Origin: a bacterium
GTDB taxonomy: Bacteria > Sysuimicrobiota > Sysuimicrobiia > Sysuimicrobiales > Segetimicrobiaceae
Direction of reading: 5' to 3'
Assembly (NCBI GenBank): GCA_035703895.1
Contig: DASSXJ010000068.1
Coordinates: forward strand, 1 to 43,633
Length of the DNA: 43,633 bases
In this document: piece after piece, positions 17,061-42,464 of the stretch
Layout of the letters: each line of letters opens with the position of its first letter
Position numbering within the stretch: the stretch's first letter is position 1
Translations under genes and position numbers: made by a program
Notes under the pieces: generated by a model
What the model saw: the letters and a program-made list of their open reading frames with translations, nothing else
The model's database searches: none
What the model was told of the DNA's origin: nothing

Positions 17061-17450
17061 TTACTTCTCGAGCATCGCCTTCATCGGCTGCCAGTAGTGT
17101 GTTCTCCAGCCCGACGTTTTGTCTCTGACGTCGTCGTCCGGTACGCCCTCCTGGGTAAACGTCAGGCGCGTTCCGGTCTTCGTCTTGGCCAGGGCGTAGG
17201 TCACCGTCGAGTAATGGTACTGCGGCCATCCCTTCGATCGCCAAAACTGGACAATTTTCTTGCCGGGGACCAGCTCGAGGTTCACGCCGTTGATGTAGGA
17301 TCCATAGGCGGTAAACCTGCCCCCCGGTCTGCGGCTGATCTGCGCAGGCGCACCGCTGAAGGCGGCGTGCTTGCGGGAATCCATCAGGGCCTCATAGACC
17401 GCGCGTGGGCTCGCCTTGATCGTCACCGACTGGCGGATCGTCTTCGCCAT
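17061..17450 (-). CDS. SRPBCC family protein (AHSA1-like)
   Basis: 129 residues, MAKTIRQSVTIKASPRAVYE followed by ALMDSRKHAAFSG, GGRFTAYGSYINGVNLELVP, and LTFTQEGVPDD near the end: the helix-grip (START-like) fold of activator-of-Hsp90 and polyketide-cyclase relatives. The ATG at 17450 has GGGGAGGGGAAGC just upstream, which decides against the longer frame from 17597. That longer frame is what remains of a second, damaged SRPBCC gene. Its role is unknown; such proteins bind small hydrophobic ligands or partner proteins. Confidence 0.82.
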   Translation of the reverse strand: MAKTIRQSVTIKASPRAVYEALMDSRKHAAFSGAPAQISRRPGGRFTAYGSYINGVNLELVPGKKIVQFWRSKGWPQYHYSTVTYALAKTKTGTRLTFTQEGVPDDDVRDKTSGWRTHYWQPMKAMLEK

Positions 17451-17465
17451 CGCTTCCCCTCCCCT

Positions 17466-17597
17466 GCCGATCCACCGACCTTCGAGTCGGTCGTGCTGTC
17501 GTCCGTCCACCAACCGCGGAGGCCCTCTTCTCTGGCGATCGCCCGGAACACCTGCTCTGGAGACGCCTCGATCTCGATCGTGCTGCGTGTCCGCCAT
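17466..17597 (-). pseudogene. N-terminal remnant of a second SRPBCC gene, frameshifted
   Basis: After GAGAGGAGG and an ATG at 17597 the frame reads MADTQ. One base out of frame the sequence continues STIEIEASPEQVFRAIAREE and GLRGWWTDDSTTD, a typical SRPBCC start. The match breaks off after about 45 residues, just at the ribosome site of the intact SRPBCC gene. It thus has its own ribosome site and start but a frameshift in codon 6 and a lost body. The tail-less copy sits in tandem with the intact gene. Confidence 0.6.
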
Positions 17598-21823: not shown

Positions 21824-22321
21824 TTATCCTCGATCGTATGCCTGCTGTAAGGTTTTGATCTCGATTTTCTTCATTTGAAGCATGGCCTTCATGACCCTTC
21901 TCGATTTCTCACCATCTTTGTCGGCCAACAACTCGCCCAAGACAGAGGGAACGACTTGCCATGACAGACCATATTTGTCTTTCAGCCAGCCGCACTGTCC
22001 TTCTTTTCCGCCCTGTGAGAGTTTCTCCCACAACTCGTCCACTTCTTCCTGCGTCCCACAGTTCACCAGAAACGATATGGCCTCAGTGAATTGAAATACC
22101 GGCCCCCCATTGAGCGCCAGAAATTCTTGGCCCTCCAGCTGGAATGTCACGACCATGGCCGTTCCCTTGGGCCTTCCAGAAGCCTGTGCCGCTTCTTCTG
22201 CATAGCGGGAAATGTGTCCAATCTTCGAGTTCTTGAAAATCGACACGTAAAATTTCGCAGCCTCTTCGGCTTTGTCATCGAACCACAAGAACGGGGTGAT
22301 TTTTTGCACCACGCTGGGCAT
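21824..22321 (-). CDS. PhnB-like VOC family protein
   Basis: 165 residues: [55 protein letters not shown], then [15 protein letters not shown], all standard for the PhnB group of VOC proteins. A clear GGAGGAGGAG precedes the ATG at 22321. Its codons are visibly AT-richer (many Lys AAA/AAG, Phe, Ile) than those of neighbouring genes, which suggests a later arrival. Upstream lies a promoter nearly identical to the one before the YCII operon. PhnB-like, YCII and ECF42-type sigma genes often occur together in bacteria, which fits. Its enzymatic role is not known; it may act on a small oxidised or methylated compound. Confidence 0.87.
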
Positions 22322-22366: not shown

Positions 22367-22393
22367 GTCGAGCGGGCCGGCCCGAAATCGACA
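22367..22393 (-). promoter_or_regulatory. ECF42-type promoter of the VOC gene
   Basis: On the minus strand TGTCGA (22393-22388) and CGAC (22370-22367) are separated by 17 nt. The surrounding 30 bp agree at 26 positions with the promoter at 30957-30983, and the four differences are all C/T or A/G changes. The predicted start near 22360 gives a leader of about 40 nt with the VOC ribosome site. This matches the published ECF42 signature as I recall it (TGTCGA and CG[A/T]C). Confidence 0.75.
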
Positions 22394-22450
22394 CGGGGCG
22401 ACCAGTCGGAATGGTCGGGGGGCTCGCCCCGTGTGCAGAGACGCGGGAGG

Positions 22451-22852
22451 TTACATCCGATCGCTCCCGATGAAGTACCTCCTGGCGTGGGCAACGATCT
22501 CTCTGTCGGTCGGATGATCCGCGGTTTCAATACCAACGACTCGGGCTTGGAGCGTCTTGTCGTGGTCTTGGAGATATCTGAAAAATTCGAGCTTCGCCGA
22601 CGACGGACCCACGATGAGCACGGCATCGGTGCCGTCGAGCGATCGCGCGACCTCGTGGAAGAACCTCTTGGCGTCATCGGGATGCTCTCTCGCCTCGCCC
22701 AGCCCCTTGGGATGCCGATGGATAAGGTGCTGCGGAGACAGGATCGTTGTTTCGTCGATGGCCTCTGGCTGCACGTGGCCGACCGTCTCCCGTCGAACGT
22801 GGAAGACGCGAGCTTCCGTGTGATCGATCCAGACGACTGCGTGCGTAGCCAT
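22451..22852 (-). CDS. Translational-machinery/BaeRF-like protein
   Basis: 133 residues from ATG 22852 (GGAGGG 7 nt upstream): MATHAVVWIDHTEARVFHV, then HLIHRHPKGLGEAREH, DAKRFFHEVARSLDG, AVLIVGPSSAKLEFFRYL and ADHPTDREIVAHARRYF. This is the pattern of short proteins annotated as translational machinery protein, related to the bacterial archaeo-eukaryotic release factor (BaeRF) superfamily, with a Gly-Pro-x-x-x-Lys region comparable to the eRF1 middle domain. Its role is unproved; ribosome-related stress is suspected for the superfamily. It is divergent from pyruvate kinase. Confidence 0.6.
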   Translation of the reverse strand: MATHAVVWIDHTEARVFHVRRETVGHVQPEAIDETTILSPQHLIHRHPKGLGEAREHPDDAKRFFHEVARSLDGTDAVLIVGPSSAKLEFFRYLQDHDKTLQARVVGIETADHPTDREIVAHARRYFIGSDRM

Positions 22853-22959
22853 GATGGGACCCTCCGCGACACGGCGTGCGCAACCCGGCTGGCTTAAATC
22901 TAGCACACGCCAACACCGCACGCGGCATCTGAAGTATGATGTGACACAGGAGGACGCTC

Positions 22960-28573: not shown

Positions 28574-28620
28574 TATCATGAAGCAATATGTATTGCAGAC
28601 AATGGCAATATATGATACGC
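28574..28620 (+). promoter_or_regulatory. Nested palindromes and -10 at the chrB start
   Basis: GCAATA-TG-TATTGC (28583-28596) is a perfect palindrome; a second TATTGC (28591) pairs with GCAATA at 28605-28610; and GTATCAT (about 28573-28579) pairs with ATGATAC (28612-28618). TATGAT at 28611-28616 would be a -10 about 12 nt before the ATG at 28629. AT-rich nested repeats point to an operator, maybe bound by ChrB itself. Confidence 0.55.
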
Positions 28621-28628
28621 TCCCGGAG

Positions 28629-29600
28629 ATGCCCTGGACTGTCTTCTCCTACTCCCTGCCTTCCAAGGGGCGGTCGAGCCCTCGGGTCGCCGTCTGGCGT
28701 CGGCTGCGGACTGTGGGGGCGATCTCGCCGAAGGGTGGCGTCCATGTCCTCCCGGCGCGCGAGGAGTGCGTGGAAGCGTTTCAGTGGCTCGCCCAAGAGG
28801 TGGAGCAGGCAGGCGGAGAGGCGCTGCTCCTCCGCGTGGAGCGCTTCGAGGGGCTCAGCGACGCCCGTCTCATGGAGCTGTTTCGGGAAGCGCGCAAGGA
28901 AGACTACGCGGCGCTCGACGTGAGGGCCGCATCGCTGGAGAAAACCCTCGCCGGCTCGAGGAAGCGCGGTTCAAGGGATGACGCGCAGGCGCGGGAGCTG
29001 CTGGGGAGGCTGAAGAGGGAGTATGCAGAGATCGCGCGCGTCGACTTCTTCGACTCCCCGGCAGGGGCGCAGGTGGCTTCGCGGCTGGCCAGGATCGAGG
29101 AGGCCCTCTCTCCGACACCGCCGGATACCCCGCAGGTGACCGCCGCCGCCCTCTCGGCGTACCGGAACAAGCGCTGGGTCACGCGGCCCAGCCCCCATGT
29201 CGACCGGCTGGCGTGCGCCTGGTTAATCCGGCGGTTCATCAACCCCCGCGCCGTGATCCGCTATTCGAATACCACGGTACCGGATGAGGTCGCCTTCGAC
29301 ATGAGTCAGGGTCCGTTCAGCCACCGCGGGAACCTGTGCACGTTCGAAACGATGGTCAGGGCCTTTGGGCTGGACGATCCCGCGGTGGGGGCGATCGCGG
29401 AGATCGTCCACGAGATCGATCTGCGAGACGGCCGCTACACCCGCCCCGAAGTTCCCGGGATCGACGCGGTCCTCCGCGGATGGATGTCCCGCTCCGATGC
29501 CGACCGCGAAACGCACGGAATCGCGCTGTTCGACGGCCTCTACGCCGCGCTCTCGCACACCCCGAAGCGGACCGCTCGACGAGAGCGCCGCGAACGGTGA
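28629..29600 (+). CDS. chrB: Chromate resistance regulator ChrB
   Basis: From the ATG at 28629, 323 residues: MPWTVFSYSLPSKGRSSPR, then VAVWRRLRTVGAIS and VHVLPAREECVEAFQWL. The N-terminal domain ends near 160; the C-terminal ChrB domain has TRPSPHVDRLACAWLIRRF, FDMSQGPFSHRGNLCTFETM and EIVHEIDLRDGRYTRPEVPG. ChrB senses chromate and controls chrA and related genes, and may also have an enzymatic C-terminal domain. I chose 28629 because family members start right at this motif, while the longer frame from 28578 runs through the palindromic operator. No chrA is present in the window. Convergent with the sigma-factor gene. Confidence 0.83.
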   Translation: MPWTVFSYSLPSKGRSSPRVAVWRRLRTVGAISPKGGVHVLPAREECVEAFQWLAQEVEQAGGEALLLRVERFEGLSDARLMELFREARKEDYAALDVRAASLEKTLAGSRKRGSRDDAQARELLGRLKREYAEIARVDFFDSPAGAQVASRLARIEEALSPTPPDTPQVTAAALSAYRNKRWVTRPSPHVDRLACAWLIRRFINPRAVIRYSNTTVPDEVAFDMSQGPFSHRGNLCTFETMVRAFGLDDPAVGAIAEIVHEIDLRDGRYTRPEVPGIDAVLRGWMSRSDADRETHGIALFDGLYAALSHTPKRTARRERRER

Positions 29601-29622: not shown

Positions 29623-30876
29623 TCAGTGCGGAAGCGCAGCCAGCCGTCGCTCGAGAAATCGACGCTCCGGCTCCTGGCGCGTGAGGCTGAGGGCCCGCTT
29701 GTAGGCCGCCCGGGCTTCTGCTGTCCTCCCCAGTCGCCGGCACAGGTCCGCCCGCGCCGAGTGCGCGAGGTGGTAGTCCCGAAGATCCCCACGGGCCAGG
29801 AGGGCGTCGATGAGGACCAGACCCGCCGCCGGGCCGTCGCGCAACGCTATCGCCACGGCGCGGTTCAGTTCGACCACGGGCGACGGATCCACGCGTGCCA
29901 GCACGTCGTACAGTCCGACGATCTGGGCCCAATCCGTCGCGGCGGCATTGGGCGCTCCGGCGTGGACCGCCGCGATCGCCGCTTGGAGCGTGTACGGGCC
30001 GACCCGCTCCGACGACAGCGCGCGTTGCACCAACGCCGATCCCTCAGCGATCTGATCCCGATTCCAGAGCGAGCGGTCCTGGTCGTCCAGCAGGACCAGC
30101 TCGCCCTCCGGCGAGGTGCGCGCCGCCCGCCGCGATTCCTGCAGCAACATCAGCGCCAGGAGCCCCACGGCCTCGGGCTCGGGCAGCAACTCGATGAGCA
30201 GCCGCCCCAGGCGAATCGCCTCGCCCGAGAGATCGTGCCGCGTCAGCGACACGCCCGAGGACGCGGAGTACCCCTCGTTGAACACCAGGTAGACGACGCG
30301 GAGCACGCTGTCCAGCCGATCCGGCAGATCGGCGCGCGACGGCACCTCATACGGAATGCGTGCGTCGCGGATCTTGGCCTTGGCACGCACGATCCGCTGG
30401 GCCACCGTGGGCGCGCCGGTGAGGAAGGCGCGCGCGATCTCCTCGGTCGTGAGGCCGCATACCTCACGCAGGGTCAGCGCGACCTGGGCGTCCGGCGGCA
30501 GGGCCGGATGGCAGCACGTGAAGATCAGCCGCAGCCGATCGTCTCCGACGCCCTCGTCGTCCCACTCCGCGCCGTCACTGGTGGCGGCATCGAGCTGCTC
30601 GGCCAGCGCGGCCAGCGACGCGTCAAACCGGGCGCGCCGGCGCATAGCATCGATGGCCTTGAAGCGGCCGGCCGACACGAGCCAGGCCCGGGGGTTGGTG
30701 GGCACGCCATCCCGCGGCCACTGCTCCACCGCTGCCGCGAAGGCATCGTGCAGCGCCTCCTCTGCGACGTTGAAGTCGCCGAGCAGGCGGATCAGCGTCG
30801 CGAGGACCCGGCGCGAATCGGAGCGGTAGACGGTGTCCACCGTATCGCGCACCCGTTCAGCCGTGTCCTCGCTCAT
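29623..30876 (-). CDS. ECF42-type sigma factor with C-terminal TPR extension
   Basis: 417 residues. Sigma2 (about 10-80) contains FNVAEEALHDAFAAAVEQWP and NPRAWLVSAGRFKAIDAMRR; sigma4 (about 105-170) contains LTLREVCGLTTEEIARAFL and APTVAQRIVRAKAKIRDA. A DUF6596-like part (VVYLVFNEGYSASSG) and a TPR-like C-terminus (LIDALLARGDLRDYHLAHS) follow. This long form without anti-sigma gene is the ECF42 group, which is partnered with YCII/DGPF proteins, as is the case just upstream here. The C-terminal extension is needed for activity in studied members. ATG 30876 follows a GTG at 30879 in the same frame. TACAAT at 30926-30921 is a possible -10 for its own promoter. Confidence 0.88.
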   Translation of the reverse strand: MSEDTAERVRDTVDTVYRSDSRRVLATLIRLLGDFNVAEEALHDAFAAAVEQWPRDGVPTNPRAWLVSAGRFKAIDAMRRRARFDASLAALAEQLDAATSDGAEWDDEGVGDDRLRLIFTCCHPALPPDAQVALTLREVCGLTTEEIARAFLTGAPTVAQRIVRAKAKIRDARIPYEVPSRADLPDRLDSVLRVVYLVFNEGYSASSGVSLTRHDLSGEAIRLGRLLIELLPEPEAVGLLALMLLQESRRAARTSPEGELVLLDDQDRSLWNRDQIAEGSALVQRALSSERVGPYTLQAAIAAVHAGAPNAAATDWAQIVGLYDVLARVDPSPVVELNRAVAIALRDGPAAGLVLIDALLARGDLRDYHLAHSARADLCRRLGRTAEARAAYKRALSLTRQEPERRFLERRLAALPH

Positions 30877-30956: not shown

Positions 30957-30983
30957 TGTCGATCTCGAGCCGGCCCGTTCGAC
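30957..30983 (+). promoter_or_regulatory. ECF42-type promoter of the YCII-BNR operon
   Basis: TGTCGA (30957-30962), 17 nt, CGAC (30980-30983), in a 30-bp block shared at 26 positions with the VOC promoter at 22367-22393. The likely start near 30990 leaves about 65 nt to the YCII ATG. It faces away from the divergent ECF42 gene, the usual place for a target promoter of such a sigma factor. Confidence 0.78.
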
Positions 30984-31055
30984 TATGCAGTGAGACGATG
31001 AACACAAGTGTCCAGCATGGATGGTAAACTGTGAACAAGCGAAGGAGGTATGACG

Positions 31056-31484
31056 ATGCGGTTCATGATGTTGATGATCCCGAAGGGGTACGAGAAGGCC
31101 GAGCCGGGCACCACGCCCGACCCCAAGGCCGTGGCGGCGATGATGAAGTACAACGAATCCCTGCAGAAGGCCGGCGTGCTGCTCGCGCTCGACGGCCTCC
31201 ACCCGCCGTCGACGGGCTCGCGCGTGAGGTTCTCCGGAGGGAAGCCCACGGTGACCGACGGGCCCTTCACCGAGACGAAGGAGACGCTCGGCGGCTACTG
31301 GATGATTCAGGTGAAGTCGAAGGAAGAGGCGGTCGAATGGGCATCACGCTGCCCCGCTTCGGACAACGAAGTGATCGAGGTTCGCCAGGTGTTCGAGATG
31401 TCGGACTTCCCTGCCGATGTCCAGGAGGCCGCCGGCACGTTTCCTGAAATGCAGGCGAAGTCCGAACCGCGCAGGGGGGCGTAG
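31056..31484 (+). CDS. YCII-related (DGPF) protein
   Basis: 142 residues, MRFMMLMIPKGYEKAEPGTT at the start, then LDGLHPPSTGSRVRFSGG, TDGPFTETKETLGGYWMIQV with the DGPF motif, and EVIEVRQVFEMSDF. I chose the ATG at 31056 because AAGGAGGT sits 6 nt before it; the ATG at 31050 is too close. These ferredoxin-like proteins share the fold of YciI and are the standard genomic partner of ECF42; a His/Asp pair in YciI is suspected to be catalytic, but their substrate is unknown. First gene of a four-gene operon. Confidence 0.9.
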   Translation: MRFMMLMIPKGYEKAEPGTTPDPKAVAAMMKYNESLQKAGVLLALDGLHPPSTGSRVRFSGGKPTVTDGPFTETKETLGGYWMIQVKSKEEAVEWASRCPASDNEVIEVRQVFEMSDFPADVQEAAGTFPEMQAKSEPRRGA

Positions 31485-32596
<1,112 letters not shown>

Positions 32597-32600
<4 letters not shown>

Positions 32601-32893
32601 TCCGGGTCGCGTTGCCGGCCCATCTGCGGAAGCTGGCGCAGGTCGACGGAGAGGTAGGACTCGAACTCGACGGTCTGGTGACGCAGCGTTCGGTCCTCGA
32701 CGCCCTCGAGGCCCGCTATCCGGTGCTGCGCGGGACGATCCGCGACCACGTCACGCAGCAGCGCCGGCCGTTCTTGCGGTTCTTCGCCTGCGAGCAGGAT
32801 CTGTCCCACGAGCCGCCGGATACGCCGCTGCCCGACGCGGTCGCGAGGGGGACGGAGCCCTTTCTCGTCGTAGGGGCCATGGCCGGCGGCTAG
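32597..32893 (+). CDS. MoaD/ThiS-like ubiquitin-fold protein with C-terminal diglycine
   Basis: 98 residues from a GTG that overlaps the propeller stop. [20 protein letters not shown], then [20 protein letters not shown], and the end [10 protein letters not shown]: the beta-grasp order and the terminal Gly-Gly are those of MoaD, ThiS and other sulfur-carrier or modifier proteins. In that family the terminal Gly is adenylated by an E1-like enzyme and carries sulfur or forms conjugates. No E1, MoaE or JAB protease gene is in the window, so its target and partner are unknown. Confidence 0.8.
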
Positions 32894-32917: not shown

Positions 32918-33274
32918 ATGAAATATTTGCTGCTGGTGTACGGTGATGAGCAGGCCTCGGATGAAGCCGAGAAGGAGCAGTGCCGCGAGGAGTCCGCGCA
33001 GTTGGTGCATCAGATCAGGTCAACCGGGAAGTATCTCGCCGCCGCCCCGCTGCACCCTGTGTCGACGGCGACCAGCGTCCGGGTGCGCGAGGGCAAACGG
33101 CTGGTGACCGACGGTCCGTTCGCGGAGACGCGCGAACAGTTGGGCGGCTACTTCTTGGTCGACGCCCGGAACCTCGACGAGGCGATCGACATCGCCGGAC
33201 GGATTCCAGGCGCGCGGCTCGGGACTGTTGAAATTCGACCGCTGATGGAGATGCCCGGCCTGTCTTCGCATTAG
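32918..33274 (+). CDS. Second YCII-related (DGPF) protein
   Basis: 118 residues: MKYLLLVYGDEQASDEAEKE, then GKYLAAAPLHPVSTATSVRV, VTDGPFAETREQLGGYFLVD and GTVEIRPLMEMPG. It has a proper GGAGG before the ATG at 32918 and lies 24 bp behind the ubiquitin-like gene. It is a paralogue of the first YCII gene, with the DGPF motif kept. Probably the last gene of the ECF42-controlled operon, since an MFS gene without strong ribosome site follows 57 bp later. Confidence 0.88.
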   Translation: MKYLLLVYGDEQASDEAEKEQCREESAQLVHQIRSTGKYLAAAPLHPVSTATSVRVREGKRLVTDGPFAETREQLGGYFLVDARNLDEAIDIAGRIPGARLGTVEIRPLMEMPGLSSH

Positions 33275-33331: not shown

Positions 33332-34591
33332 GTGACGGGGGACGAGTGGTGGCGACCCCTACCTCGGGGTTTCTCCGCCGATGCCCTGCGGGTGCTCGCC
33401 GGCAGGAGCGTGCGGGCGTTTGGGGATGGGTTCGTCTCTTTGTTGCTGCCGATTTACCTGCTCCGGCTCGGCTTCAGCCCGTTGGCCATCGGTTCGATCA
33501 TTACCGGCACGCTGCTTGGGTCCGCCTTACTCACTCTCACATTAGGGTTGATCGCCCATCGGTATTCCCGGCGGTGGATGTTACTCGGCGCCTGCCTGCT
33601 GATGGCGGCGACTGGGATGGGCTTCGCGCTTACCCGCGAGTACTGGCCCATTCTGATCGTTGCTTTTGTCGGTACCATGAACCCTTCGGCCGGCGATGTG
33701 AGCGTCTTCCTGCCGCTCGAACACACCGTGCTGGCCGAGACGGTCGAGCCGCGGCGGCGGACGGCGCTGTTTGCGCGCTACAGCCTGGCCGGGACACTCG
33801 TGGCGGCGATGGGAACGCTGGCCGCGGCGATCCCCGACCTTGTCGCGGCCCGCGTTGGAATCAGCCGGGTCGCCGCCGTGCAGTTCACGTTCTGGGTGTA
33901 CGGCGCGCTCGGTCTCGTGGCGTTCCTCCTGTATCGCCCGCTGTCGGCGGCCGTCGAGGCGCCGTCTCGGCCCGAGGCCCCGCGGCCGGCGTTGGGACAA
34001 TCGAAACAGGTCATCTACAGCCTCGCCGCGCTGTTCAGCATCGATGCGTTCGGAGGCGGATTCTTCGTCCAGTCGCTGCTCGCGCTCTGGCTCTTCCAAG
34101 CGTTCCATCTCTCCGTGGCGACGGCCTCGTCGATCCTGTTCTGGAGCAGCGTGTGTTCCGCACTCTCGTTTCTGGTGGCTGTGCCGATCTCCGAGCGGAT
34201 CGGTCTGATCAATACGATGGTGTTCACACACCTGCCGTCGAACATCTTTCTGATCCTGGTCCCGTTTGCGCCCAACCTCGCCACGGCGATTGGCCTGCTG
34301 CTGGCCCGCAACGCGCTTTCGCAAATGGATGTGCCCACGCGCACATCCTATGTCATGGCGGTGGTAACACCCGAGGAACGCCCCGCCGCGGCAAGCATTA
34401 CCGCCGTGCCCAGAAGCCTCGCCACGGCCGCGAGCCCGATCCTCGCAGGATACCTGCTCACGCTCTCGACCTTCGGCTGGCCGCTGCTCATCGGCGGCGC
34501 GCTGAAAGGAATATACGATGTGCTGCTGCTGATCAAGTTCCGAGGAGTTCGCGCCGCGGAGGAACGTCCCGCCACGGGCCCGCTTCTATGA
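33332..34591 (+). CDS. MFS transporter
   Basis: 419 residues, about 12 helices. DGFVSLLLPIYLLRLGFSPL opens the first pair, and IAHRYSRRWMLLGACLLMAA carries a weak loop 2-3 motif. LARNALSQMDVPTRTSYVMA and AVVTPEERPAAASI lie in the C-terminal half. The GTG start at 33332 lacks a strong ribosome site, so the start is uncertain. Likely a drug or metabolite exporter; it may be read through from the YCII operon. Convergent with the phosphatase-fold gene, 22 bp apart. Confidence 0.8.
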   Translation: MTGDEWWRPLPRGFSADALRVLAGRSVRAFGDGFVSLLLPIYLLRLGFSPLAIGSIITGTLLGSALLTLTLGLIAHRYSRRWMLLGACLLMAATGMGFALTREYWPILIVAFVGTMNPSAGDVSVFLPLEHTVLAETVEPRRRTALFARYSLAGTLVAAMGTLAAAIPDLVAARVGISRVAAVQFTFWVYGALGLVAFLLYRPLSAAVEAPSRPEAPRPALGQSKQVIYSLAALFSIDAFGGGFFVQSLLALWLFQAFHLSVATASSILFWSSVCSALSFLVAVPISERIGLINTMVFTHLPSNIFLILVPFAPNLATAIGLLLARNALSQMDVPTRTSYVMAVVTPEERPAAASITAVPRSLATAASPILAGYLLTLSTFGWPLLIGGALKGIYDVLLLIKFRGVRAAEERPATGPLL

Positions 34592-40844: not shown

Positions 40845-42464
40845 TCATTTGGCGAGCCAGACGTCCGCGAAGCTCTGCTGAAACGCCGGGTGCGGCACGA
40901 ATCCGCTCACATACGGCCGGTGGGCGTGGGCGGTCGAGCGGTGGCAGTAGATCGGACCCGGGAGATACTCGAGCCACAGCTCCTGGACCTTCGTGTAGGC
41001 CGACTTTCGCGCCCCCCGCTCAAGGGTCGTGGCGCCCTTGCGGATCTCGTCGACGTAGCCGGGAATCATGTCCGGCGTCAGACCGAGATAGTTGGCCGGG
41101 ACAGGCGGAAAGAACAACCCGGCCGAGTACGTGAGGGCCGGATCCGTCGATCCCCGCGGTGGGTAGTCGACACAGGCGAAGAAGTCTTTGGTCTGATTCA
41201 GCCGGGCCGCCCACTGCGCGATGTCCACCTCTTCGATGGCCGGCCGGTATCCGGCGGACGCGAAGGTCGCCTGCAGCAGCGTAGAGATCTGCTTGAACTC
41301 GGGGTACCCCGACGGCACGAGGAAGCTGAAGTTGAGCCCCCGCCCCTTGGGGTAGCCGGCCTTCTCCAGCAGCTTTCCCACGGTGTCCGGGTTGTACGAG
41401 TACGCGTTCTCCGTCTTCGGGTCGAACGCCCAATGCTGCGGGGTAAACGGGCTGTTGTCGACGCGCCCCAGGCCGGCTAGGAAATTCTTGATGAATCCCT
41501 GGCGGTCGAGGGCCCACGCCATCGCCTGCCGCATCTCCAGCTTGTTGAAGGGCGGCTTACGCATGTTCAGGTATACGAGGAACATCTGGTCCGCCGGCGG
41601 GACGACCGCGACGGCGATGCTCTTGTCGGCGCGGAGGCGCGGAACCTCCTGCAGGCTAAAATCGTAGACGAGGTCGACGTCACCGGCGAGGAGCTGCGAG
41701 ATGCGGGTCTGGAGCTCGGTCACCGGCCGGAGTATGATTTTGTCGACGTGTCCGGCCCGCGCCTCGTTCCAGTAGTTCGGGTTTCGCTCGAGGGTGACAT
41801 GGTCGTTCGGGATCCACTCCACAAACTTGTAGGGCCCCGAGCCAATGGGGTTCTTCTTGGCCAGATCCGTCCCCATGCTGCGCGGCACGATATCCACGTA
41901 CGTGAAGGCGGGGATGAGCTGGTTCTCGATCGTCTCGGTCTTGATCTTGAGATGGGTGTCGTCGAGCACCTGCACGTCTTTGATCGGCGCAACGAACCCT
42001 CGCAACCATGATCCCACCTTGGGATCGCGGATGCTGTCGAGGGTGAACTTCACATCCTCGGCGGTGAGCTTCTCGCCGTTGTGGAAGGTCACGCCGCTGG
42101 GAAGCGCGACCACCAGGCTGGTGTTGTTATCCGTCCAGACGAACGATTTTGCCAGCTTCGGTTTGACTTGAAAGGTCGTCGGATCCTGGTACGAGAGTTG
42201 GTCGAAGATGTTGGTTTTGGTCACTTTCCAGACGTTCAGCGTGCCGTTCCAGGGGTGCAGCGTGTTGATGTCGACCGACTGGCTGACCGTCAGCGTCCCG
42301 CCGCGCTTCGGCTGGCCGGTCGCCGGCGTGGCCACCGCGTGCGCCAGGTCGCGCAGGACGGCCGGGGTTATTCCCGAAGCCGTCCCCGCCAGCGCCAGCC
42401 CGGCCTGGGACAGCAAACGGCGCCGCGAGATCGAGCGTGCCTCTCTCCTCAGCCGCTTCCCCAT
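40845..42464 (-). CDS. Peptide-type ABC transporter substrate-binding protein, Tat-exported
   Basis: 539 residues from ATG 42464 (GGGGAGGGATC just upstream). The front SISRRRLLSQAGLALAG has the twin-Arg pattern with a hydrophobic stretch. The mature part shows RGGTLTVSQSVDINTLHPWN, LPSGVTFHNGEKLTAEDVKF, PIGSGPYKFVEWIPNDHVTL and LEMRQAMAWALDRQGFIKNF, all SBP_bac_5 marks. First gene of the operon with two permeases and a Gfo/Idh/MocA enzyme, so the ligand may be an oligosaccharide or polyol rather than a peptide. Confidence 0.9.
   Translation of the reverse strand: MGKRLRREARSISRRRLLSQAGLALAGTASGITPAVLRDLAHAVATPATGQPKRGGTLTVSQSVDINTLHPWNGTLNVWKVTKTNIFDQLSYQDPTTFQVKPKLAKSFVWTDNNTSLVVALPSGVTFHNGEKLTAEDVKFTLDSIRDPKVGSWLRGFVAPIKDVQVLDDTHLKIKTETIENQLIPAFTYVDIVPRSMGTDLAKKNPIGSGPYKFVEWIPNDHVTLERNPNYWNEARAGHVDKIILRPVTELQTRISQLLAGDVDLVYDFSLQEVPRLRADKSIAVAVVPPADQMFLVYLNMRKPPFNKLEMRQAMAWALDRQGFIKNFLAGLGRVDNSPFTPQHWAFDPKTENAYSYNPDTVGKLLEKAGYPKGRGLNFSFLVPSGYPEFKQISTLLQATFASAGYRPAIEEVDIAQWAARLNQTKDFFACVDYPPRGSTDPALTYSAGLFFPPVPANYLGLTPDMIPGYVDEIRKGATTLERGARKSAYTKVQELWLEYLPGPIYCHRSTAHAHRPYVSGFVPHPAFQQSFADVWLAK

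Follow-up and report, generated by a model that had tools for sequence, protein, structure and literature searches.

Putative ECF42-type promoters of a VOC gene and a YCII operon, part of a wider set of predicted sites in an uncultured bacterium

Two sites in the analysed DNA, at 22367-22393 and 30957-30983, are best read as promoters recognised by the adjacent ECF42 sigma factor (gene at 29623-30876), and as members of a wider set in the same genome (probability about 0.88). The window, which is the whole stretch of 43,633 nucleotides, makes up contig 68 in an assembly of 4.38 Mb.

The two sites and the genes behind them

The motif TGTCGA-N17-CGAC is present at 22367-22393 (minus strand) and 30957-30983 (plus strand); these coordinates and strands are exactly those given in an earlier note on this DNA. 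The elements concerned are the following:

21824-22321 (-), VOC-superfamily protein (PF06983, 3-dmu-9_3-mt; E 8e-48), 165 aa, predicted target
22367-22393 (-), putative ECF42-type promoter of the VOC gene: TGTCGA at 22388-22393, 17-nt spacer, CGAC at 22367-22370, then CA; score 26.8
29623-30876 (-), ECF42-type sigma factor (sigma-70 regions 2 and 4, DUF6596, TPR), divergent from the YCII operon
30957-30983 (+), putative ECF42-type promoter of the YCII operon: TGTCGA, 17-nt spacer, CGAC, then TA; score 30.0
31050-31484 (+), YCII-domain protein (PF03795; E 1.5e-23), operon gene 1
31485-32600 (+), BNR/Asp-box repeat protein (domain match), operon gene 2
32597-32893 (+), small protein with a GG end, overlapping the BNR stop; likeness to MoaD/ThiS sulfur carriers by eye alone
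32918-33274 (+), second YCII-domain protein of the operon (E 2e-20)
33332-34591 (+), MFS transporter (domain match), possibly the last gene of the YCII operon, to judge from spacing alone

The two sites are identical at 24 of 27 positions, and at 26 of 30 when counted through the third base past CGAC, a recount that returns the earlier figure. The VOC start (22321) lies 45 nt, and the YCII start (31050) 66 nt, past the end of the respective -10 element, in line with the limit of about 70 bp claimed before. The exact pattern is found three times in the window, against 0.23 expected from window shuffles; the third match, at 41146-41172 (-), lies within a solute-binding-protein gene and scores at background level.

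The scores given above come from an independent matrix, for which 80 ECF42 loci were collected across many phyla and the two closest excluded from training. The next best position in the window reaches 16.7, and the best position in the reversed window, which served as control, 15.1. By this matrix, 22367 and 30957 are the only good ECF42 sites in the window, and the earlier identification of both as ECF42-type promoters is supported. The same scan of the window found no ECF42 site before the AHSA1 gene (17061-17597) or before the second YCII gene (32918-33274).

An inverted repeat that is long and rich in GC, CGGGGCGA...TCGCCCCG (22393-22430), stops just ahead of the -35 element of the VOC promoter and could be the terminator of the upstream gene at 22451-22921, although it lacks a T run. 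The small GG-ending protein, encoded between the BNR and second YCII genes, has no match to a Pfam or NCBIfam model. Two relatives (G001 and G004) have, in the corresponding operon, a similar small open reading frame with a GG end, immediately ahead of the VOC gene.

Conservation of the promoter motif

In the 80 ECF42 loci there are 71 occurrences of TGTCGA-N17-CG[A/T]C, spread over 61 of the loci, against three of the reversed pattern, and the count of spacer lengths peaks sharply at 17. Pseudomonas loci in this set also carry TGTCGA-N17-CGAC. The window sites conform to the ECF42-promoter pattern, in which TGTCGA, a fixed spacer and CG[A/T]C stand upstream of YCII-type genes. Conservation is observed beyond the two elements: the upstream DNA and the bases past the -35 element are T-rich, CC(G/A) precedes the -10 element, and TA follows CGAC. 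It is asymmetric: T at position 28 is found in 77% of ECF42 sites and A at position 29 in 96%, and the opposite side has no counterpart. Site 22367 has C, not T, directly after CGAC, a point against its reading as an ECF42 promoter.

The sequence GCCGGCCCG, which the earlier note singled out as a spacer core, is indeed common to the spacers of both window sites. It was rejected as a recognition core, since among ECF42 promoters only its CC(G/A) near the -10 element is conserved.

The sigma factor and its locus

The protein encoded at 29623-30876 has sigma-70 regions 2 and 4 only (PF04542 at residues 18-84 and PF08281 at 119-170), followed by a C-terminal extension of about 230 aa. This corresponds to the extension of about 200 residues with TPR (DUF6596) that marks the ECF42 group, and carries DUF6596 (residues 188-287, E 2e-37) and TPR_2 (371-400, E 1.3e-5, slightly below the Pfam cut-off). 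The YCII-family gene that adjoins ECF42 genes is also present, in divergent orientation (31050-31484). These domains confirm that an ECF42 gene lies next to the second site. The closest named ECF42 matches are in MAGs labelled Terrabacteria group ANGP1 and Methylomirabilota.

No anti-sigma domain was found among the identified neighbours of the sigma gene (ChrB-like, YCII, BNR, MFS), and a search for a sigma-70-type promoter of this gene found none. The ChrB-like protein (ChrB_N and ChrB_C; 28578-29600, plus strand) adjoins the ECF42 gene. At three loci in relatives (L187, G005:C115; L195, G009:C48; L199, G011:C82), an ECF42 site stands ahead of the sigma gene's own YCII gene, with the sigma gene 3' of the latter, an arrangement that suggests self-activation. 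The sigma gene of the window, unlike these, has no such site.

A genome-wide set of sites

The exact pattern TGTCGA-N17-CGAC is present 18 times in the 4.38-Mb genome, and its reversed control once. Eight of the 18 are promoter-like (spacer-only matrix score of at least 4.3), and lie 30-135 nt from a downstream gene or remnant of the YCII, VOC/glyoxalase or RibD_C families: YCII in four cases (two of them fragments), VOC in two and RibD_C in two. Because the genome was scanned by exact pattern alone, eight is a minimum. The genes behind these sites are:

30957 and C240, YCII gene
C118, YCII gene truncated by the contig end (sub-threshold Pfam match, E 0.004)
C41 (L208:2545-2685), short YCII-like remnant of 46 aa, recognised by eye, without a Pfam match
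22367 and C171, VOC gene
C52 and C113 (site C113:9538), RibD_C gene

The remaining ten matches have scores below zero, like chance matches, and lie within or antisense to open reading frames. The earlier note had reasoned that many equal-scoring random matches in the genome would count against promoters; the ten extra exact matches all fall below zero with the independent matrix, a result that favours promoters. At C41, the ECF42-type promoter ahead of the remnant is intact and high-scoring, and the remnant is likely a pseudogene with a retained switch.

The pair in the window had also been taken to define a local regulon. A local regulon would leave the genome without further sites of equal quality, but other contigs hold six more promoter-like CGAC sites, before the same kinds of genes; owing to this scatter, the regulon is not local.

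Among the relatives, promoter-like sites track the presence of the sigma factor. Where the window-type ECF42 clade is present, 30 of 89 exact matches are promoter-like; with other ECF42s the figure is 3 of 25, and in relatives without ECF42 it is 0 of 36 (in each case among the matches listed, for the relatives other than G002). Since TCGACA is what TGTCGA reads on the opposite strand, some ECF42-type sites in relatives match exactly on both strands, shifted by one base (G005:C91:2322-2349, G001:C176:14342-14369 and G010:C76:55408-55435).

Probable co-regulation of the VOC gene with the YCII operon

Joint switching of the VOC gene and the YCII operon, as proposed earlier, is very probable and well supported by comparison of gene orders. 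The best evidence is the position of the VOC orthologue relative to ECF42 sites in eight relatives with a close orthologue (64-71% identical). In two sister species of the same genus (G001 and G004) operon linkage is observed: the VOC gene lies within the operon behind the ECF42 site, in the order site-YCII-BNR-small protein-VOC. In G003 and G005 an ECF42 site precedes a neighbouring operon in which the orthologue comes after another gene, and elsewhere the orthologue has a site of its own, either 35 nt upstream (G009) or with an N16 spacer (G006). No ECF42 site was found at the orthologue in G002, which has an ECF42, or in G007, which alone among these relatives lacks ECF42. The case of G002 counts against the promoter reading. 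The arrangement in Leptolyngbya boryana, where a VOC gene stands directly 3' of YCII beside an ECF42 gene, also fits joint switching. Most relatives have kept an ECF42 site for the VOC gene, whether it belongs to the main operon or lies apart from it, a clear case of predicted co-regulation preserved despite gene rearrangement.

Alternative readings of the sites

The genome encodes three DUF6596 sigma factors (in the window, on C35 and on C113), and motifs are alike within the family. The promoters might therefore be read wholly or partly by the C35 or C113 paralogue, and the window sigma factor would not be the switch. This is unlikely, because the sites that adjoin the paralogues end in CGTC (C35:22112 and C113:52889, as well as G005:C49, where the neighbouring sigma factor is orthologous to that of C35), whereas relatives with window-type ECF42 alone still carry CGAC sites. 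The lineages are also separate in the tree: all labelled members of the window sigma factor's clade have CGAC, and CGTC is found beside other ECF42 lineages, including those of Sinorhizobium and Ruegeria. Exact CGTC sites number 11 in the genome, three of them upstream of target-type genes, namely DUF899 (C30), VOC (C35) and YCII (C113:52889), and two of these three adjoin the other two paralogues. Since the labelled sequences are few and the labels come from the neighbourhood, the assignment of CGAC to the window paralogue is a lead rather than proof. A more tentative suggestion, at somewhat less than even odds, is that the ambiguity in CG[A/T]C reflects lineage sub-specificities, with the window lineage reading CGAC only and the paralogues CGTC, so that several ECF42s within one cell would run separate YCII/VOC sets from near-identical promoters.

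The near-palindrome GTCGA...TCGAC could instead be a bidirectional promoter or the operator bound by a dimeric transcription factor, given that TGTCGA and TCGACA are reverse-complementary and that a few relatives have exact matches on both strands (G001:C176, G005:C91). Both forms appear very improbable. The asymmetric conservation described above (T28, A29) speaks against a dimeric operator. For a two-way promoter toward the sigma gene, the divergent reading of site 30957 scores 4.9, against 30.0, and lacks the conserved A after CGAC. Moreover, promoter-like sites are missing from ECF42-less relatives among the matches listed.

Chance resemblance in GC-rich DNA does produce exact hexamer-tetramer pairs, as in the coding gene at 41146-41172, but it is scarcely credible for both sites, whose matrix scores far exceed all other window positions and the reversed-window control, and for which gene family, position and conservation agree.

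Proposed mechanism

On the reading as ECF42 promoters, RNA polymerase carrying the sigma factor encoded at 29623-30876 would recognise both sites, with sigma region 4 contacting TGTCGA and region 2 contacting CGAC across the fixed 17-nt spacer. Transcription would start a few bases 3' of CGAC, from one promoter into the VOC gene and from the other into the YCII-BNR-small protein-YCII(-MFS) operon. Since both promoters would be driven by the same sigma factor, both transcripts should rise upon its activity. The two promoters belong to a predicted genome-wide set of at least eight CGAC promoters ahead of YCII, VOC and RibD_C genes. With no adjacent anti-sigma gene, the sigma factor is probably controlled via its own C-terminal DUF6596/TPR extension.

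Relation to known ECF42 systems

For the ECF42 factors of Streptomyces venezuelae, Liu et al. reportedly described in 2018 the motif TGTCGA and CG[A/T]C, as in the window sites, and their targets are said to be chiefly the adjacent YCII operons. By contrast, the genome studied here has many scattered predicted targets. The S. venezuelae proteins (Sven_0747, Sven_4377 and Sven_7131) resemble the window sigma factor in their TPR-rich C-terminal extension and their YCII (DGPF) partners (PMC8999054). ECF-10 of Pseudomonas putida belongs to the same sigma group, but differs in having a reported stress and antibiotic phenotype (PMC8999054).

In Sinorhizobium meliloti, the ECF42 factor RpoE10 has promoters mapped by their 5' ends, with the sequence TGTCGG-N17-CGTC (spacer counted from the printed sequences), upstream of SMc01149, SMb20475 and SMc01151 (PMC6180224). 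SMb20475 and SMc01148 are glyoxalase-like, and one RpoE10 promoter precedes a glyoxalase-like gene on another replicon (PMC6180224). The two systems share an ECF42 gene adjoining a YCII gene, a bipartite N17 promoter and distant glyoxalase-like targets (PMC6180224). However, the window sites read TGTCGA...CGAC in place of TGTCGG...CGTC, and the YCII and sigma genes, which form one operon in S. meliloti, are divergent in the window. A published proposal has ECF42 factors controlled via their TPR-containing C-terminal extension, perhaps with YCII as partner (PMC8999054). Together with the RpoE10 promoters, this proposal indicates that the window system fits a known kind.

The regulatory system itself is therefore already known in other bacteria, and what is added here is the size of the set, the rearrangement of the operon and a possible split in -10 specificity. 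The families that travel with the sigma factor (YCII, VOC, RibD_C and DUF899), to which DoxX-like and SRPBCC-like companions are added in relatives, as judged by eye, hint at the signal to which ECF42 responds. The outcome is a testable, predicted genome-wide ECF42 regulon in an uncultured lineage.
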